Source: Pseudoponticoccus marisrubri (lineage in GTDB: Bacteria > Pseudomonadota > Alphaproteobacteria > Rhodobacterales > Rhodobacteraceae). From it: DNA of 64,000 nt. Position numbers and translations under genes: made by a program. Where the stretch lies: NCBI RefSeq assembly GCF_001482405.1, contig NZ_LPXO01000009.1, forward strand, positions 97,053 to 161,052, read 5' to 3'. Every line of letters starts with the position of its first letter. Position 1 is the stretch's first letter. The notes beneath the pieces were generated by a model that saw only the letters and a program-made list of their open reading frames with translations, did not search any database and was not told where the DNA came from. Shown piece by piece: positions 7,570-15,574 of this stretch.

Positions 7570-7587
7570 TGTCAGGCAAAGTTGACA
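7570..7587. promoter_or_regulatory. PpsR-type operator, crtI-proximal
   Basis: TGTCAGGCAAAGTTGACA matches the full PpsR form TGTc-N10-gACA. It lies 17 bp from the crtI start codon and 54 bp (start to start) from a second copy, an arrangement compatible with cooperative binding of PpsR tetramers to paired sites. Confidence 0.8.
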
Positions 7588-7623: not shown

Positions 7624-7641
7624 TGTCAGAGTGAGTTGACA
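7624..7641. promoter_or_regulatory. PpsR-type operator, crtA-proximal
   Basis: TGTCAGAGTGAGTTGACA is the second exact TGTc-N10-gACA palindrome of the crtI/crtA gap, ending 25 bp before the crtA ATG. Both sites share the outer arms TGTCAG and GTTGACA. Confidence 0.8.
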
Positions 7642-8373: not shown

Positions 8374-9371
8374 GCAGTTTCCCCTTCTCCGCCATTGTCG
8401 GACAGGACGCGATGAAACGCGCCATGGTCCTGACCGCCATCGAACCGCGCCTGTCGGGCGTGCTGGTCTTCGGCGACCGCGGCACCGGCAAGAGCACCGC
8501 GGTGCGCGCCCTGGCCGCGCTGCTGCCGCCCATCGAGGCGGTGCGCGGCTGCCCGGTCAACGCCGCCACCCGCGCAGACAGCCCCGACTGGGCCGAGGGC
8601 GTGACCGACACGGTCGAGACCCGCCCGACCCCCGTGGTCGACCTGCCGCTGGGCGTGACCGAGGATCGCGTCACCGGCGCGCTGGACATCGAGCGCGCGC
8701 TGGTCGACGGGGTCAAGGCGTTCCAGCCCGGCCTGCTGGCGCAGGCCAATCGCGGCTATCTCTATATCGACGAGGTCAACCTGCTCGAGGATCACATCGT
8801 CGATCTCCTGCTGGACGTGGCGCAATCGGGCGAGAATGTGGTCGAGCGTGACGGGCTGTCGATCCGCCACGCCGCGCGCTTCGTCCTTGTCGGCTCGGGC
8901 AACCCCGAAGAGGGCGAGCTGCGCCCGCAGCTGCTCGACCGGTTCGGCCTCTCGGTCGAGGTGCGCTCGCCCTCGGATATCGAGGAGCGGATCGAGGTGG
9001 TGCGCCGCCGCGACGCGTTCGAGACCGACCCGCAGGCCTTCCACGCCGAATGGGGCCCGCGCGACGCCGAGATCCGCGACCGCATCCTCGCCGCGCGGGC
9101 GGCCTTGGCACGGATCGACACGCCCGAGGACGCGTTGCGCGACTGCGCGCAGCTCTGCATCGCGCTGGGGGCCGACGGGCTGCGGGGCGAGCTGACCCTG
9201 CTGCGCGCCGGCCGCGCGCTCGCCGCCTATGACGGCGCGACCGCGCTGGGGCGCGCGCAGATCCGCGCCGTGGCCCCGCTGGCGCTGTCGCATCGCCTGC
9301 GCCGCGATCCGCTGGACGAGGCCGGATCGGTCGCCCGCGTCACCCGCGCCGTGGACGAGGTCCTGTCGTGA
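8370..9371 (+). CDS. bchI: Magnesium chelatase ATPase subunit I
   Basis: AAA+ ATPase subunit of the BchI-BchD-BchH magnesium chelatase, which inserts Mg2+ into protoporphyrin IX. The 333-residue protein has Walker A GDRGTGKST near residues 33-41, Walker B YLYIDEVNLL near 131-140, and the sensor region LVGSGNPEEGELRPQLLDRF. ATG at 8370 overlaps the crtA stop, and its TGA overlaps the GTG of bchD. Confidence 0.98.
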   Translation: MSSFPFSAIVGQDAMKRAMVLTAIEPRLSGVLVFGDRGTGKSTAVRALAALLPPIEAVRGCPVNAATRADSPDWAEGVTDTVETRPTPVVDLPLGVTEDRVTGALDIERALVDGVKAFQPGLLAQANRGYLYIDEVNLLEDHIVDLLLDVAQSGENVVERDGLSIRHAARFVLVGSGNPEEGELRPQLLDRFGLSVEVRSPSDIEERIEVVRRRDAFETDPQAFHAEWGPRDAEIRDRILAARAALARIDTPEDALRDCAQLCIALGADGLRGELTLLRAGRALAAYDGATALGRAQIRAVAPLALSHRLRRDPLDEAGSVARVTRAVDEVLS

Positions 9372-11050
9372 CAGAGGCCGCGGCCCTGTCCGACTGGCAG
9401 CGGCTGCACCTTGCGCTGCGCTGCTTGGCGGTTGCGCCCTCCTCCCTGGGCGGCATGGTTCTGCGCGCCCGCGCCGGTCCGGTTCGGGACGCGGCGCTGG
9501 CGCTGCTGGACACCCAGCCCGGCCCCGTGGTCCGCCTGCACCCCGCGATGACGGCCGATGCCCTGCAAGGCGGGCTCGACCTGACACGCACCCTGCAAGA
9601 GGGGCGCCCGGTGCAAAGCCCTGGCGCCCTGTCGCGGTCCGGGACCTTTGTCCTGGCCATGGCCGAGCGCTGCCCGCCCGAGATGGCCGCCCTGCTGGCA
9701 CAGGCGCTTGATGCCGGGCTGGACGGCCCGCTGGTCCTGCTGGACGAAGGCGCCGAAGAGGGCGAGACGCCCCCTGCCCTGCTGGCCGAGCGGCTGGCTT
9801 TTCAAGTCGACCTGACCGGGTTGGCGCTGGCCGATGCTGTCCCCGCGGGGACAGGTGTTGAAATTCCGTTCCAATCGCGTGCGCCCAGTTCACCCGGCGC
9901 CAGGTCCGACATACCCGTGGAGTCCGGCCCTGTCCCCGCGGGGACAGAAGCCACCCGCCTCACCGCGCTCGCCGCCAGTTTCGGCATCGACAGCCTGCGC
10001 GCCCCGCTCTTCGCCTTGGCCGCCGCCCGCGCCCTGGCCGGTGGCAGCCCGGTCACCGAGCGGCATATGGAGCTCGCCGCGTTGCTCACCTACCCCTCAC
10101 GCGCGACGCGCCTGCCGGAGCCTCCGGCCGAGGACCCCGCGCCTCCCGACCCCAGCCCAGACACGCCCGAGCCTTCGGAGACGCAACGCCCCGAGGATCT
10201 GCCGCAGGACATGCTGGTCGAGGCGATCCGCGCCACAATTCCGCAAGGACTGCTGGAGCAGATTGCACAGGGCGCCTCCCGCACCGCCAAGGGCTCCGGC
10301 GCCGGACAAAGGCGCAAGGGCAACCGCCGCGGCCGGCCCCTGCCCTCGCGCCCGGGACGCCCCGGCAATGGACAGCGCGTCGACCTGACCGCCACCTTGC
10401 GCCGCGCGGCCCCTTGGCAGAAGCTGCGCGGCGCCACGGATCGCCCGATCATCTGGCCCTCGGATCTGTGCCTGAAACGCTACGAGGACCGCTCGGACCG
10501 GCTGCTGATCTTCGCCGTCGACGCCTCGGGCTCGGCCGCGCTGGCCCGGCTGGCAGAGGCCAAAGGCGCGGTGGAACTGCTGCTGGGCGAGGCCTATTCC
10601 CGTCGCGACCACGTGGCCCTGATCGCCTTCCGCGGCAGCACCGCGGACCTGCTGCTGCCGCCCACGCGGTCGCTGGTGCAGGCCAAGCGGCGGCTGTCCG
10701 CCCTGCCCGGCGGCGGCGGCACCCCGCTCGCCACCGCCCTCCAGACGGCCGGCGAGTTGGCGGTGACCGCGCAGGCGCACGGGCTGTCGCCGACGCTGGC
10801 GCTGTTCACAGACGGGCGGGCCAACGTGGCCCTGGACGGGCAGGGTGACCGGCCCCGCGCGCAGGCCGATGCGCACAGGCTGGCTCGCTGGCTGCGCGAG
10901 ATGGCGCTGCCGGGGATCGTGCTGGATGCCGGGCGCCGACCGCATCCCCCGCTGGCCGAGCTGGCGGCCACGCTGGGGGCCCGCTACGTGCCGCTGCCGC
11001 GCGCCGATGCGCAGGCCCTGGGCGCCACGATCCGCGACGGGCTGGGCTGA
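9368..11050 (+). CDS. bchD: Magnesium chelatase subunit D, with two parS-like palindromes in its coding sequence
   Basis: Non-hydrolysing AAA+ partner of BchI. The 560-residue protein has an N-terminal AAA-like part, a Pro/acidic linker near residues 245-280, and a C-terminal von Willebrand A/integrin-I domain with a MIDAS-type DASGSAA motif around residue 385. The GTG start at 9368 overlaps the bchI stop (GTGA). Oddity: residues about 158-193 (VPAGTG...VPAGTE) are encoded by two copies of the same 18-bp palindrome. They frame a Ser/Pro-rich stretch that looks like an insertion compared with what I recall of Rhodobacter BchD. Function is probably intact, since both flanking domains are in frame. 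Confidence 0.96.
   Translation: MTEAAALSDWQRLHLALRCLAVAPSSLGGMVLRARAGPVRDAALALLDTQPGPVVRLHPAMTADALQGGLDLTRTLQEGRPVQSPGALSRSGTFVLAMAERCPPEMAALLAQALDAGLDGPLVLLDEGAEEGETPPALLAERLAFQVDLTGLALADAVPAGTGVEIPFQSRAPSSPGARSDIPVESGPVPAGTEATRLTALAASFGIDSLRAPLFALAAARALAGGSPVTERHMELAALLTYPSRATRLPEPPAEDPAPPDPSPDTPEPSETQRPEDLPQDMLVEAIRATIPQGLLEQIAQGASRTAKGSGAGQRRKGNRRGRPLPSRPGRPGNGQRVDLTATLRRAAPWQKLRGATDRPIIWPSDLCLKRYEDRSDRLLIFAVDASGSAALARLAEAKGAVELLLGEAYSRRDHVALIAFRGSTADLLLPPTRSLVQAKRRLSALPGGGGTPLATALQTAGELAVTAQAHGLSPTLALFTDGRANVALDGQGDRPRAQADAHRLARWLREMALPGIVLDAGRRPHPPLAELAATLGARYVPLPRADAQALGATIRDGLG
9837..9854. promoter_or_regulatory. Putative parS (ParB-binding) palindrome 1, inside bchD
   Basis: CTGTCCCCGCGGGGACAG is a perfect 18-bp palindrome. 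In bchD it is read as (A)-V-P-A-G-T-(G), codons 158-162. Identical copies occur at 9930 and 11414, and a 14-bp core copy lies upstream of parA at 14419. The palindromic 16-bp form resembles the layout of known parS sites, and a parAB pair is 2-5 kb away. The parS role is inference. Confidence 0.65.
9930..9947. promoter_or_regulatory. Putative parS palindrome 2, inside bchD
   Basis: Second identical 18-bp palindrome, 93 bp after the first and in the same bchD reading frame (V-P-A-G-T, codons 189-193). The two copies bracket a short Ser/Pro-rich peptide, which suggests insertion or duplication of the element with the linker. Confidence 0.65.
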
Positions 11051-11053
11051 GCG

Positions 11054-11929
11054 ATGCGCTGGCCGCCGCCGCCCGACTGGCCCTTCGCGGCGCAGTCGAC
11101 CCGCATCCCGCTGCCCCCGCATGAATGGCACGTGCAGCAACTGGGCGACGGGCCATTGCTTGTCTTGCTGCACGGCGCGGGCGGCGCGACCCATAGCTGG
11201 CGCGGGTTGGCGCCGATCCTGGCAGAGCGCTTCCGGCTGGTGATGATCGACCTACCGGGCCACGGCTATACGCGGTCGCCGCGCGCTTCACGCTCGGGGC
11301 TCGACGCGATGGCCGAGGACGTTGCCCGGTTGATGCAGATGCAGGGCTGGCAGCCCCGGGCCGTGATCGGGCACTCGGCCGGGGCGGCCGTCGCGTTGAG
11401 GATTTCTTTGGATCTGTCCCCGCGGGGACAGCGATTCGCCACGGTGGGGATCAACCCGGCGCTGACTCCGTTCGAAGGTGTCGCCGGCTGGCTGTTCCCG
11501 GCCATGGCGCGGCTGCTGGCGATCAACCCGCTGACCCCCAGCCTGTTCACGCTGCGCGGCGGCTCGCCCCGGCAGGCGCGCAAGCTGATCGAGGGCACGG
11601 GATCGACGCTCGACCCCGAGGGGTACCGGCTTTATGCGCGGCTGCTGGGCGACCGCGACCACGTGAACGGGGCGCTTCAGATGATGGCGCGCTGGTCGCT
11701 GGACCGGTTGCTGGCCGAGCTGCCAAGGCTGGAGGCACCTGCGCTGTTCATCACCGGAGACCGCGACCGCGCCGTGGCGCCCAAGGTGGCCGACCGCACG
11801 GCGGCCCGGATGCAACGGGCCGAGGTCACGCGATTGGACGGGCTGGGCCACCTGGCCCATGAAGAGGATCCGCAAAAGGTCGCCGACGAGATCCTGTCCT
11901 TCCTCGACCGGCCCAACACGGGCGCCTGA
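11054..11929 (+). CDS. bchO: BchO, alpha/beta-hydrolase of the Mg-chelatase operon
   Basis: Alpha/beta-hydrolase always found next to bchD in purple bacteria; its exact reaction is unsettled, and it is thought to aid the magnesium chelatase step. The 291-residue protein shows an oxyanion-hole HGAGG near residues 40-44, the nucleophile elbow GHSAG (Ser about 108) and a late GLGHLAHEE histidine region. It starts 3 bp after the bchD stop and is the last gene before the replication module. Codons 121-126 (L-S-P-R-G-Q) are formed by a third copy of the 18-bp palindrome, in a different reading phase from the bchD copies. Confidence 0.93.
   Translation: MRWPPPPDWPFAAQSTRIPLPPHEWHVQQLGDGPLLVLLHGAGGATHSWRGLAPILAERFRLVMIDLPGHGYTRSPRASRSGLDAMAEDVARLMQMQGWQPRAVIGHSAGAAVALRISLDLSPRGQRFATVGINPALTPFEGVAGWLFPAMARLLAINPLTPSLFTLRGGSPRQARKLIEGTGSTLDPEGYRLYARLLGDRDHVNGALQMMARWSLDRLLAELPRLEAPALFITGDRDRAVAPKVADRTAARMQRAEVTRLDGLGHLAHEEDPQKVADEILSFLDRPNTGA
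11414..11431. promoter_or_regulatory. Putative parS palindrome 3, inside bchO
   Basis: Identical 18-bp palindrome CTGTCCCCGCGGGGACAG. Here it is read in another codon phase (CTG TCC CCG CGG GGA CAG) than in bchD, so conservation of the DNA cannot come from a conserved peptide. Confidence 0.65.
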
Positions 11930-11945
11930 CGCGGGCCGCCCACAT

Positions 11946-11981
11946 GAAAAAGGCCCGGGCGCCTCACGCGCACCGGGCCTT
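11946..11981 (-). terminator. Intrinsic terminator of the parA-parB operon
   Basis: AAGGCCCGG (11950-11958) pairs perfectly with CCGGGCCTT (11973-11981). On the minus strand the stem is followed by a T-run (complement of 11947-11951), so it ends parB transcription 28 bp past the parB stop. On the plus strand it may also slow readthrough from bchO, but there is no U-tract on that side. Confidence 0.8.
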
Positions 11982-12009
11982 GAATTGGCTCATCGAATCC
12001 CGCGAGGGG

Positions 12010-13080
12010 TTACTGTTCCAACCGGTCCAGCAGGGCCTGCACGGCTTCTTCCAGCACGTGCCGGTCGAGGCTGCTGAAATCGCGATCCATGCGCAGCTCC
12101 AACCGCCCATCGGCCAGCGTGCACTTGGCCACATCGCCGCCGGGGCGCGAGAGCTTCATCACCGTGCGCGCCGAAGAGGTGGCAGGCTTTTTCGGCTTGG
12201 CGGCCGCGCGTTCGGGGGCCAGCCATTTCTGCAGAATGGCCAGCTCGTTCTCGACCGTCTTCTCCAGCAGCATGCGCAGGTCGTCGCGAATGCGCTCGGC
12301 CAGGCCCGGCTGCTCCTCGATCCGCTTGACCATGTCCAGCCCCAGCTTGCGCGGCACGGCATCGGCATGGGACATCATCACGCCGATTTCCGAGACGAAG
12401 GTGGTGAAGTGCCGGATGTAGGAGCGCTTCTGCCGCCCGGCCGAGGCAAAGAGCAGGTCGGCCGCCTCGAAAGGCGTCAGCTCCGGCGTGTCGGGATCGC
12501 GCGCATAGTTGAGCGCCAGCGTCGCCATCTCGGCAAAGGAGATGTCGCGGCGGATCAGGTTCTCGTCCACCATCTTGCGGTAGAGGTGGTCCAACTCGTC
12601 GCCCGGGGTCTGCACATGGGCGGGGATCTCGGCAAAGCGGTCCTCGCCCGTCTCGGCATGAAGCTCGGCAAAGGCCATCAACCGGCGATAGCCCTGGATC
12701 AGCTCGAACCGGTCGCCGGCGGCCTCGACCCGGATCGGGTTGGACAGGCCGATGCGCCGGATCGAGGCCTTGAGCTCTTCCATCTCGGGATCGCGGGTGG
12801 CCGAGCGGTCGCGGCTGAGCTTGGTGGCGTCGACCAGGTCCAGCGGCACGGTGCGCATGATCAGGCCGGCCTGTTTCAGCGCGACATATTCATGCGCCAG
12901 CCGGTCATTCTCGGCCCGGATCGCGGCCTCGGCCTGCTGGCGCCCGGCCAGCGCCTCGGCATTCTCGGTGATGGCGGCGGCCATCGGACCGCGGCGGCCC
13001 GGGGCAGGGGGGTCCTTGGACTCGGGCTCGACCGGGTCGGCCTCGAACTCGATCTCGAACATGCGGCGTTTGCGGCTCAT
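12010..13080 (-). CDS. parB: ParB-family partition protein (plasmid type)
   Basis: Centromere-binding protein of a ParABS system. The 356-residue protein has a ParB/Spo0J N-domain (VDATKLSRDRSATRDPEMEELKAS is split here by PEMEELKASIRRIGLSNP near 114-130) and the signature LIQGYRRLMAFAEL about 140-153. The DNA-binding middle includes VDENLIRRDISFAEMA near 183-198, and the C-terminal dimerisation part is charged. It begins 1 bp after the parA stop and is followed by a terminator. Plasmid-type rather than chromosomal ParB is suggested by the linkage to a replication initiator gene. Its likely targets are the palindromes at 9837, 9930, 11414 and 14418. Confidence 0.9.
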   Translation of the reverse strand: MSRKRRMFEIEFEADPVEPESKDPPAPGRRGPMAAAITENAEALAGRQQAEAAIRAENDRLAHEYVALKQAGLIMRTVPLDLVDATKLSRDRSATRDPEMEELKASIRRIGLSNPIRVEAAGDRFELIQGYRRLMAFAELHAETGEDRFAEIPAHVQTPGDELDHLYRKMVDENLIRRDISFAEMATLALNYARDPDTPELTPFEAADLLFASAGRQKRSYIRHFTTFVSEIGVMMSHADAVPRKLGLDMVKRIEEQPGLAERIRDDLRMLLEKTVENELAILQKWLAPERAAAKPKKPATSSARTVMKLSRPGGDVAKCTLADGRLELRMDRDFSSLDRHVLEEAVQALLDRLEQ

Positions 13081-13081
13081 C

Positions 13082-14392
13082 TTACGCGGCCTCCTCGGCA
13101 TCCATCTGGTCCCAGCTCGCGGTCAGCGTGGCCTTGAACTCGTCATAGGCGCGGTCGAAGGAGCCGCGCGCCCGGCGCCAGGTCTCGCGGGTCATCTCGC
13201 GATAGTCGGTTTCGTAGATCGAGTTGAGGAAGCGGCCGGACTGTTCGACGGCGCGGGTCAGCTCGATCGGGTGCTCGGTCATGCGTGGGCCGAAAACCTT
13301 GCCAAAGGCTGACTGCATCGCGCGGTGCAACTCGTTGTTGGGCTCGAACCGGGTCAGCAGGAAGCGCACGTCGAGAAAGGCCTTGGGCAAGGGCAGGGTA
13401 CCCGGCGGCAGCAGGCCCTGGAACTGCGACAGGTCGTCCAGCGCCTCGGAAAGCTGGCCGATGAAGGAGGTCGTGCTGTCATATTCCCAGTAGCCCGGTC
13501 CCGAGGGGATGTAGAGCACGTCGGCGGCGAAGACGGCGTTCATGCTCTGGTAACCAATGGCGGGCGGGCAGTCGAAGAGGATCAGGTCGTAGCTGTCGGC
13601 CGGGATCTGGTCGAGATAGCGCGCCACCGCGGCGAAGAAGGACCACTCGGGGTTGAGGTGCCGGTACTGCGCGCTGGCGAACTCGACGAAGGCCGCGTTG
13701 GCACAGGAAGGGATCAGGTCGATGGTCGACCAGGCGGTGGGCTTGACGAAATCCGTCACGCGCAGGTCCATCAGCCCCATCTCCTGGATCGAGGCGGGGA
13801 TGCGGCGGCGGGGCAGGGCGGTGCCCGATTCCGCCCCGCGCGCGCTGGCGTTCATGCGCTCGGTCTCACGCGCGAGGTCGCGGGCCATGATGCCCCAGAC
13901 GGTGTATTCCTCGGCGATGTCGGTCAGGCCCATGGAATGGCTGAGCGTGGCCTGCGGGTCGAAATCGACGCAGAGCACGCGGTAGCCGTCCAGCGCGGCG
14001 GCATGGGCGAAATGCAGCGCCACGGTGGACTTGCCGGCGCCGCCTTTGAAATTGGCGATGGCGGCGCGGATCGCGCGGCGCCCGGCGGGCCGGGGCGGCA
14101 TCAGCGACCGGCGGTTGATGCGCAGCTTGCGGCGGATCTCGTTGACCTCGTCAAGGCTGTACCAGCGCTGGCGGCCGTCCTCCTCGACCTGCCCCTGCGG
14201 CAGGCTGGGGTCGGCGGCCATCTTGCCGCGCAGGGTGGACTGGTTGACCTTGAGGATCAGCTCGGCCAGCTCCCACGAGGAAAAGCGGCGCAGCGTCTTC
14301 TCGCGCTCGGGCGAATAGGTCTGGCGCCGGATCGCGCCCTGCATCTTGAGCGACTGCGCCTGCAGCGCCTTGAGGTCTTCATGGGTGAACAT
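13082..14392 (-). CDS. parA: ParA-family partition ATPase with N-terminal DNA-binding domain
   Basis: Deviant Walker-type ATPase that moves the plasmid by acting on ParB-parS complexes. The 436-residue protein has a roughly 110-residue N-terminal extension with a helix-turn-helix-like section (WELAELILKVNQSTLRGKM), typical of type Ia ParA/RepA proteins that also repress their own operon. It then has the deviant Walker A FKGGAGKST near 114-122, Walker A' VDFDPQATLS about 142-151 and Walker B LILFDCPPAIGYQ about 265-277. It is divergent from the replication gene, and a parS-like palindrome lies 26 bp upstream of its ATG. Confidence 0.92.
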   Translation of the reverse strand: MFTHEDLKALQAQSLKMQGAIRRQTYSPEREKTLRRFSSWELAELILKVNQSTLRGKMAADPSLPQGQVEEDGRQRWYSLDEVNEIRRKLRINRRSLMPPRPAGRRAIRAAIANFKGGAGKSTVALHFAHAAALDGYRVLCVDFDPQATLSHSMGLTDIAEEYTVWGIMARDLARETERMNASARGAESGTALPRRRIPASIQEMGLMDLRVTDFVKPTAWSTIDLIPSCANAAFVEFASAQYRHLNPEWSFFAAVARYLDQIPADSYDLILFDCPPAIGYQSMNAVFAADVLYIPSGPGYWEYDSTTSFIGQLSEALDDLSQFQGLLPPGTLPLPKAFLDVRFLLTRFEPNNELHRAMQSAFGKVFGPRMTEHPIELTRAVEQSGRFLNSIYETDYREMTRETWRRARGSFDRAYDEFKATLTASWDQMDAEEAA

Positions 14393-14417
14393 GGGGCCTG
14401 TCCCTTTTCTTGATCGC

Positions 14418-14433
14418 TGTCCCCGCGGGGACG
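14418..14433. promoter_or_regulatory. Putative parS palindrome 4, upstream of parA
   Basis: GTCCCCGCGGGGAC (14419-14432) is the core of the same palindrome as in bchD and bchO, here in non-coding DNA 26 bp upstream of parA. It could serve both as centromere and as operator for parAB autoregulation. Confidence 0.65.
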
Positions 14434-14700
14434 CTCTTTGCTGCCTGTTCGGAATTTACGCCGGATTTGCAAAAAACGCAAAAGGCAATATCGTAGATCA
14501 GGGCTTTTTCGGAATCTGCGTTTTCCCTTGTGCCCCAAGGGCTTTGCAGGCGCTGACCGATTCGGACGGGCAGGGGGTCCGACGGGCCCCGGCGCTGGAC
14601 AGACGGGCGAGATATTGGGGGACTCCGAACCGTGTCCCGCCACCGATTGGGGGACAGAACGGCGCGAATGGGGGACAGACAGGCTGTCCTCCAATACCAG
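14434..14700. other. Putative replication origin region (AT-rich part plus iterons)
   Basis: The 498-bp gap between parA and rep holds no credible gene. Its parA-side part is locally AT-rich (14445-14530), unlike the surroundings. It contains an inverted pair AAAACGCA (14473-14480) / TGCGTTTT (14517-14524) and repeated TCGGAATYT words. It is followed by iteron-like GGGGGACAG repeats. AT-rich DNA next to iterons and a replication initiator gene is the usual layout of a theta-type plasmid origin. The origin role is inferred. Confidence 0.5.
14614..14696. repeat. Iteron-like repeats ATTGGGGGACAGA, three direct and one inverted
   Basis: ATTGGGGGACT (14614-14624), ATTGGGGGACAGA (14645-14657) and AATGGGGGACAGA (14667-14679) are direct copies spaced 31 and 22 bp. 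CTGTCCTCCAATA (14684-14696) is an inverted copy with one change. They lie about 200-280 bp upstream of the rep start, as expected for initiator-binding iterons. Confidence 0.6.
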
Positions 14701-14788: not shown

Positions 14789-14890
14789 CAGGACACGGTC
14801 GGAAAAGACGCCGCGACAGACGGCTGAGCCGGCCGGACCGCAAGAGCGGTGAGGCAGCCCCGAGGCTTCGGTGGAAAGGCAAGGACAGTG

Positions 14891-15574
14891 ATGCAAGTGG
14901 CACGCCCCGTCGGTCGCGCGGCGGCTTCCCGGAAATACGATCTGCTGACCGCGCTGGGAGCCCATGCGCTGGCGCAGGACAAGACGGTGCAGCGCCGGGT
15001 GCTGCGCCTGCTGACATTGATCACCGCGCGCTACAACTGGGCCCGGGACGAGCTGGCGGTGGGCCAGCGCGAGATCGCGCGGCTCTGGTCGGTGGATGAG
15101 CGCACGGTCAAGCGCGAGATGGCCCGGCTGCGCGCCGATGGCTGGCTGGTGGTGCGCCGGCAGGGGGCGCGCGGACGGGTGACCGAGTACCGGCTGGACC
15201 TGGAACGGGTGCTGGAGGACACGCGCCCGCAATGGGACGCGGTGGGCCCCGATTTCGCGCTGCGCATGGGCACGGCGGACGGCGAGGCGGCGCAGGTGGT
15301 GCCCATGCCGGTCAAGGGCCGCGTGCCGGCCCCGGAGGTGCGCGAGGGCACGGAATGGGCGCTGGCCCGGGCCCTGCTGCACGGCGAGGACGAGGCGCTC
15401 TATGCCTCGTGGCTGCACGGTCTGGAGCGCGCCGAGCGGGCAGGGGGGCGGCTGACCCTGCGCGCGCCCTCGCGCTTCCACGCGGCCTATGTGCAGACCC
15501 ACCTGGAGCGGCAGGTGCTGGCAGCCTGCCAGGCGGTGGATGACGGCGTGACCGAGCTGCGCGTGACGTGGTGA
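14891..15574 (+). CDS. DnaA-like plasmid replication initiator
   Basis: Replication protein of the DnaA-like replicon class known from Roseobacter plasmids. The 227-residue protein begins MQVARPVGRAAASRKYDLLTA. It has a winged-helix-like section (about 37-90; QREIARLWSVDERTVKREMA), then a C-terminal part (about 150-225; EWALARALLHGEDEALYASW, LRAPSRFHAAYVQTHLERQV) that resembles the DnaA N-terminal domain. It lacks any AAA+ ATPase motif, so it is not chromosomal DnaA. The ATG at 14891 has AAGGA 5 bp upstream; an in-frame GTG at 14849 is less well placed. It is divergent from parA across the iteron region. Confidence 0.85.
   Translation: MQVARPVGRAAASRKYDLLTALGAHALAQDKTVQRRVLRLLTLITARYNWARDELAVGQREIARLWSVDERTVKREMARLRADGWLVVRRQGARGRVTEYRLDLERVLEDTRPQWDAVGPDFALRMGTADGEAAQVVPMPVKGRVPAPEVREGTEWALARALLHGEDEALYASWLHGLERAERAGGRLTLRAPSRFHAAYVQTHLERQVLAACQAVDDGVTELRVTW

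Follow-up and report, generated by a model that had tools for sequence, protein, structure and literature searches.

Why one palindrome should recur inside photosynthesis genes and again in front of a partition gene is the question raised by a 64,000-nucleotide stretch of Pseudoponticoccus marisrubri DNA (contig NZ_LPXO01000009.1, positions 97,053 to 161,052; hereafter the window). The genes concerned are bchD, bchO and the partition pair parA and parB (parAB). The bchI-bchD-bchO genes point toward parB-parA; beyond parA there is a probable DnaA-like replicase (Table 1). The palindromes in bchD, in bchO and before parA are very probably parS sites, the likely centromere of the plasmid, to which its ParB is predicted to bind. 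The same DNA letters encode part of a pigment enzyme and are likely to help the daughter cells to inherit the plasmid.

Palindromes in bchD, bchO and before parA

bchD contains two copies of a perfect 18-mer palindrome, CTGTCCCCGCGGGGACAG, and bchO contains one. A fourth copy at 14417-14434 has two mismatches to the 18-mer, and its 14-bp core is perfect. No further 18-mer match was found in the window with up to three mismatches allowed; shuffled windows (n=100) gave a mean of 0.19 palindrome matches and never reached four. The original prediction had given these positions, the core before parA, the absence of other window copies and the reading phases (VPAGT twice in bchD and LSPRGQ in bchO), all of which were confirmed.

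In the entire 4.56-Mb genome the 16-mer of the palindrome occurs three times, always in bchD or bchO of the window, and the reversed-sequence control gave no occurrence. The 14-mer with at most one mismatch was found at six places genome-wide (control: three), including the four perfect copies of the window and two copies with one mismatch on other contigs. On the 161,052-bp contig it is restricted to these four places, which span less than 4.6 kb. Given the encoded peptides, the chance of the exact codons is about 0.001 per site (codon use of eight window genes); the sites include the rare codons ACA (7% of the Thr codons) and GGA (7% of the Gly codons). That partition-type sites lie within bchD and bchO, as proposed, is evident from the sequence.

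Distribution of the palindrome and its linkage to parAB

The 16-mer was present in 25 of the 295 family genomes. A ParB relative (E<=1e-30) is encoded in every one of these 25, compared with 69 of the 270 genomes without the 16-mer (Fisher p 3e-14). In a class-wide sample, one of 385 genomes has the 16-mer, which is the window's own. Among 80 bchD loci of named genomes, 11 have a ParB match in the examined stretch, and nine of these carry the 16-mer; whereas it is found in none of the 69 loci without a ParB match (up to two mismatches allowed), some of which are short contigs where parAB could be missing through the contig end. The remaining two ParB-positive loci (L049 and L052) have GTTCCCCGCGGGGAAC in place of the 16-mer. 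In their bchO this GTT-class palindrome occupies the same place as the TGT-class site of the others, and it is read as CSPRGT where the others read SPRGQ. Among the rows compared, the SPRG loop peptide of BchO is confined to the parAB-linked clusters plus L052, a locus whose contig breaks off within parB. These sequence comparisons support the view that the palindrome belongs to this parAB type.

The complete plasmids of Roseobacter ponti, Thalassococcus sp. S3, R. litoralis and Tateyamaria omphalii have a common parAB-bchO-bchD order, with 5, 6, 6 and 12 palindrome copies (<=3 mismatches), respectively, in and around parA, parB, bchO and bchD. The palindrome is missing from four photosynthesis plasmids in which no ParB lies close by within the examined stretch. 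The plasmid-borne cluster of Sulfitobacter guttiformis has no copy of it and is reported to have a RepB-III module instead (PMC6052148). Two plasmids with this parAB and without bch genes (L016, L017) have the palindrome around parAB. The parAB-linked set includes 23 clusters from 22 genomes (L127 repeats L053), and in 21 of the 22, the exception being L117, bchD or bchO contains a site of the cluster's own class with at most one mismatch. The peptides encoded at these intragenic sites are VPAGT, SPRG(Q/H) or CPRGD, depending on the phase.

A distant parAB (ParB 32% identical) adjoins bchO on the Sulfitobacter sp. S190 plasmid (L015, about 10515-10540), and a single longer palindrome, CAGGGTTACCCGCGGGTAACCCTG, is located between its bchO and parB.

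The palindromes might alternatively be operators for bch and par transcription, acting through KorB-like silencing by ParB or through a photosynthesis regulator of the PpsR/CrtJ type. The TGT and ACA ends of the palindrome resemble the PpsR box; however, its spacing is TGT-N10-ACA and not the TGT-N12-ACA of the PpsR/CrtJ consensus. A PpsR/CrtJ operator was rejected on this spacing and on the presence of the palindrome on bch-free plasmids. The copy upstream of parA is at a usual place for autoregulation, and KorB, a ParB relative that is among the fold matches of this ParB, silences at a distance (PMC11790492); whereas most of the sites are mid-gene, and the palindrome surrounds parAB on L016 and L017 and also at 47 non-photosynthesis loci. 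Operators as the explanation of the palindromes are therefore improbable. ParB might also have a regulatory role alongside partition.

At places other than the palindromes, the window holds 13 PpsR/CrtJ-like TGT-N12-ACA boxes (7570-7587, 7624-7641 and others), compared with 3.4 expected.

Selection on the DNA letters in the genus Roseobacter

In the genus Roseobacter, 17 of the 19 genomes have bchD. Sixteen of the clusters were examined; the 17th (G265) is the locus L106, which has nine sites. parAB adjoins 12 of the 16 clusters and is absent from the examined stretch of the other four, two of which are on contigs of more than 4 Mb. The alignment included 15 clusters (11 with and four without parAB), after the truncated L210 was dropped. 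In the 11 clusters with parAB, the three intragenic sites are 97-98% identical, compared with 67-68% for the rest of the genes. The site windows rank first of 846 in bchO, and first and second of 1574 in bchD, by identity; by third-position identity the ranks are second of 282 in bchO, and first and second of 524 in bchD. When the clusters with parAB are compared with the four lacking it, identity at these columns is 59-62%, slightly below the background of 65-66%. The three sites are near-identical with parAB and at background level without it, and therefore selection on the DNA letters goes with parAB. The original prediction of DNA-level selection is supported by this alignment: the sites are kept where parAB adjoins the cluster and decayed where it does not.

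One of the clusters without parAB (L196, on a 4.13-Mb contig; BchD 90% identical to R. litoralis) has remnants of the sites with two, three and four mismatches, which translate to APAGT, APAGT and SPQEQ. This is probably R. denitrificans, whose chromosomal cluster was reported to nest among the plasmid-borne ones, with re-integration inferred (PMC6052148, ISME J 2018). The prediction that the photosynthesis genes would be hard to separate from the replicon is not supported, as four of the 16 clusters have no parAB in the examined stretch and the S. guttiformis plasmid cluster is without the palindrome. A 1.07-Mb contig (L201, G298) also carries a cluster in which parAB is intact and both the sites and a replicase match are present; the contig could be a large replicon, or the cluster could have integrated recently into a chromosome.

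ParB residues and palindrome classes

Near 56 of the 60 family ParB genes there is a recurrent near-perfect 16-bp palindrome of a related kind (a count without shuffle control). The palindrome classes are TGTCCCC, CTTCCCC, TTTCCCC, GTTCCCC, CTTACCC, TTTACCC and TGTCCCTG. On the ParB tree (82 rows), the ten class labels need 18 changes compared with 35.1 in shuffles, and none of 200 shuffles was as low; near-copies among the tree rows favour such clustering. The residue table also has 82 rows (76 distinct), since nine of 91 labelled rows were dropped (unlabelled, singly labelled or short). Residue 223 begins the predicted ParB helix 223-238. All 51 TGT rows have R there, all 21 CTT rows have Y and all seven TTT rows have P; the three GTT rows have K, K and R. 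At residue 224, 72 of the 74 rows whose fourth site position is C have Q, and the eight rows with A at that position never do. The correspondence of residues 223 and 224 with the class is suggestive and not significant.

The orphan parB genes L150, L151 and L154 have palindromes without a close parA or replicase in the examined stretch, and therefore the palindrome goes with ParB rather than with ParA or the replicase. These loci also bear on the proposal that the palindromes are sites of the DnaA-like replicase (origin iterons) and not of ParB. One half of the palindrome (GGGGACA) is similar to the repeats in front of the replicase gene; however, where the palindrome is of another class (CTT, TTT and CTTA; e.g. 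L119, L152), GGGGACA is still present in these repeats. Replicase iterons were rejected because the repeats keep their letters while the palindrome varies, and this origin of the palindromes is very improbable.

In the orphan locus L154 (G033, 4.15-Mb contig), the ParB-like gene is located between CTTCCCCGCGGGGAAG palindromes, and the genome has 33 matches of KTCCCCGCGGGGAM.

The placement of the sites was surveyed in 77 loci, including 30 photosynthesis loci and 47 others (at least two genomes, those of L036/L199 and L044/L207, were counted twice). A site is located within 120 bp upstream of parA in 51 of the 77 loci, and 70 of the 76 parA-internal sites are within one 50-bp bin; the window has no parA-internal site. 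The sites downstream of parB are denser in the 30 photosynthesis loci, where they number 118, than in the 47 others, where they number 61 (37 loci with any).

Evidence against the parS assignment and scattered copies

Several observations weigh against parS sites. A clear class palindrome is missing at four of the 60 ParB loci (L117, L123, L135 and L144); L117, which has parAB, lacks a site within one mismatch in bchD or bchO, and the sole intragenic site of L028 carries one mismatch. A phylogenetic test of residue 223 against the class gave two to four independent pairs, with which the sign test cannot reach 0.05. The absence of parAB from four Roseobacter clusters was judged within the examined stretch only. 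The ParB_N domain of the ParB scored 23.9 bits, which is under the Pfam cut-off of 26.3. The ParB model is loose (predicted template modelling score 0.38), and its fold matches to ParB, Noc and KorB were found at E 1e-7 with a template modelling score to the query of only about 0.2. The 16-mer also occurs away from parB in G001, G036, G080, G086 and G265, and many scattered 16-mers are present in G062 (79), G246 (62) and its congener G315 (35).

Scattered copies, which the original prediction had named as evidence against itself, do occur in a few genomes; however, the three extreme ones (G062, G246 and G315) encode an orphan ParB of this family. No close parA was found in the examined stretch of L150 (G062) and L151 (G246). 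In the genus of G246, ParB of 88-100% identity goes with 62 and 35 copies, ParB of 66% identity with one copy, and the other 12 genomes have none. These orphan ParB proteins look like Noc-like or other chromosome-wide binders of the ParB family. The copies of G062, G246 and G315 are spread over many contigs, and in G246 and G315 they are often paired, about 25-45 bp apart.

The scattered copies of G062 and G246 could also suggest a mobile repeat, and the copy at 14418 scores as terminator-like (five such sites in 7.5 kb; shuffles 3.1 +- 1.8), as would suit RNA hairpins or terminators without a protein partner. The flanks of 25 scattered copies were compared, however, and the palindrome is their only shared element. 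Within a ParB class it is the exact letters that are conserved and not only the ability to pair, and no T run follows the three sites in coding DNA. One of the four copies scores as a terminator or hairpin, a reading that was rejected for the coding copies; there is very little probability that a hairpin, terminator or mobile repeat explains the palindromes.

The replicon and its partition module

The ends of the 161,052-bp contig overlap exactly over 90 bp; the contig is therefore probably a closed circle, which suggests a circular plasmid. Its relatives suggest that it belongs among Roseobacteraceae-type bacteria. The features are listed in Table 1. As expected for a ParABS system, a Walker-type ParA (AAA_31/CbiA matches, RepA family similarity) adjoins parB, with which its gene overlaps, and a repeated palindrome specific to the ParB type is located near parAB. 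The best match of ParB in the PDB by sequence has an E value of 0.0045. parA and parB are 81% and 51% identical, respectively, to their counterparts on R. litoralis pRLO149_94, which was classed as DnaA-like I (PMC6052148). The replicase is 75% identical to a region of the Tateyamaria plasmid and 52% to a gene annotated 'DnaA N-terminal domain-containing protein'. Both parAB and the replicase are thus related to the known DnaA-like I type, the replicase being assigned by similarity only.

Table 1. Palindromes, genes and repeats of the module in the window.
Feature	Position	Strand	Remarks
parS-like palindrome 1	9837..9854	.	in bchD, read as V-P-A-G-T
parS-like palindrome 2	9930..9947	.	in bchD, read as V-P-A-G-T
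parS-like palindrome 3	11414..11431	.	in bchO, read as L-S-P-R-G-Q; place conserved in related plasmids
14-bp palindrome core	14419..14432	.	26 bp upstream of the parA start at 14392
bchD, Mg-chelatase subunit D	9368..11050	+	NF009943, 584.5 bits, cut-off 571; hosts palindromes 1 and 2
bchO, alpha/beta hydrolase	11054..11929	+	TIGR03056, 336.4 bits, cut-off 172.55; hosts palindrome 3
parB	12010..13101	-	helix-turn-helix-type partition protein; residues 223-224 open a helix whose letters track the palindrome class
parA	13082..14392	-	Walker-type partition ATPase, RepA-like
Three direct repeats, (A/T)TTGGGGGAC-type	14614..14676	+	probable iterons of the replicase gene, which they precede
Probable DnaA-like replicase (replication initiator)	14849..15574	+	weak DnaA_N match below cut-off; assigned by similarity

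Proposed mechanism

ParB would bind the palindromes, and ParA would move the plasmid copies apart. The helix-turn-helix of ParB might read both halves of the palindrome, with residue 223 contacting the outer bases and residue 224 the fourth base. In line with established ParABS knowledge, ParB would load as a clamp, spread over the bchIDO-parBA stretch and build a partition complex that is pulled by ParA. In the BchO model (predicted local distance difference test 94), LSPRGQ corresponds to residues 121-126, where helix 109-124 ends and a turn leads to strand 129-133; the bchD sites map to a poorly conserved linker of BchD. The coding DNA may have taken up the sites because they fall in such tolerant segments, and the DNA requirement would dictate the short VPAGT or SPRGQ peptides there. 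The intragenic parS sites are probably real and functional.

A wider proposal is that a distributed centromere reshaped two photosynthesis proteins, that ParB clamps loaded on bchIDO tie pigment expression to partition, and that the decayed parS sites of bchD and bchO on chromosomes prove, as fossils, which photosynthesis clusters have a plasmid past. This proposal is possible, though rather doubtful.

Implications and comparison with known systems

If the sites are parS, DNA-level selection for inheritance would override the codon choice and add short peptides within conserved enzymes. The palindrome classes together with the two ParB residues might provide a testable recognition code that could predict plasmid incompatibility. 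The sites may also serve as a sequence test for the open question of whether the photosynthesis clusters on Rhodobacteraceae chromosomes were once plasmid-borne (PMC6052148); parS remnants like those of L196 would be the mark of a plasmid stage.

The chromosomal ParB-parS systems (Spo0J, Noc and KorB family) also have a 16-bp palindrome, and the fold of the present ParB matches ParB, Noc and KorB; however, the sequence similarity of ParB is weak. The chromosomal parS begins with TGT and ends with ACA, whereas its inner bases differ from this palindrome. For the DnaA-like type, the founding 2011 Mol Biol Evol paper reportedly proposed palindromes in the replication module as centromere analogues. 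In the DnaA-like I photosynthesis plasmids (R. litoralis pRLO149_94 and others) the module is at the same place inside the photosynthesis cluster (PMC6052148), and the parAB-bchO-bchD order is the same in the plasmids compared here; the main text of that account has neither 'palindrom' nor 'partition'. The literature searched, which was mostly without subscription papers (including the 2011 and the 2012 'Think pink' papers), did not describe palindromes in bchD or bchO and did not contain the 16-mer.

The RepABC parS sites of Rhodobacterales are also multi-copy palindromes near the partition genes, are specific to the partition type, and are found within the open reading frames that follow the module as well (PMC9040568, PMC5613091). 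Their type-specific palindromes define the RepABC compatibility groups (PMC5613091). parS in flanking open reading frames of RepABC plasmids and the place of the module in the photosynthesis cluster were thus already known. In contrast to RepABC, the replicon is of the DnaA-like I type and the palindrome has other letters; moreover, the hosts are core photosynthesis genes, in which the sites are conserved across species and lost without an adjoining parAB.

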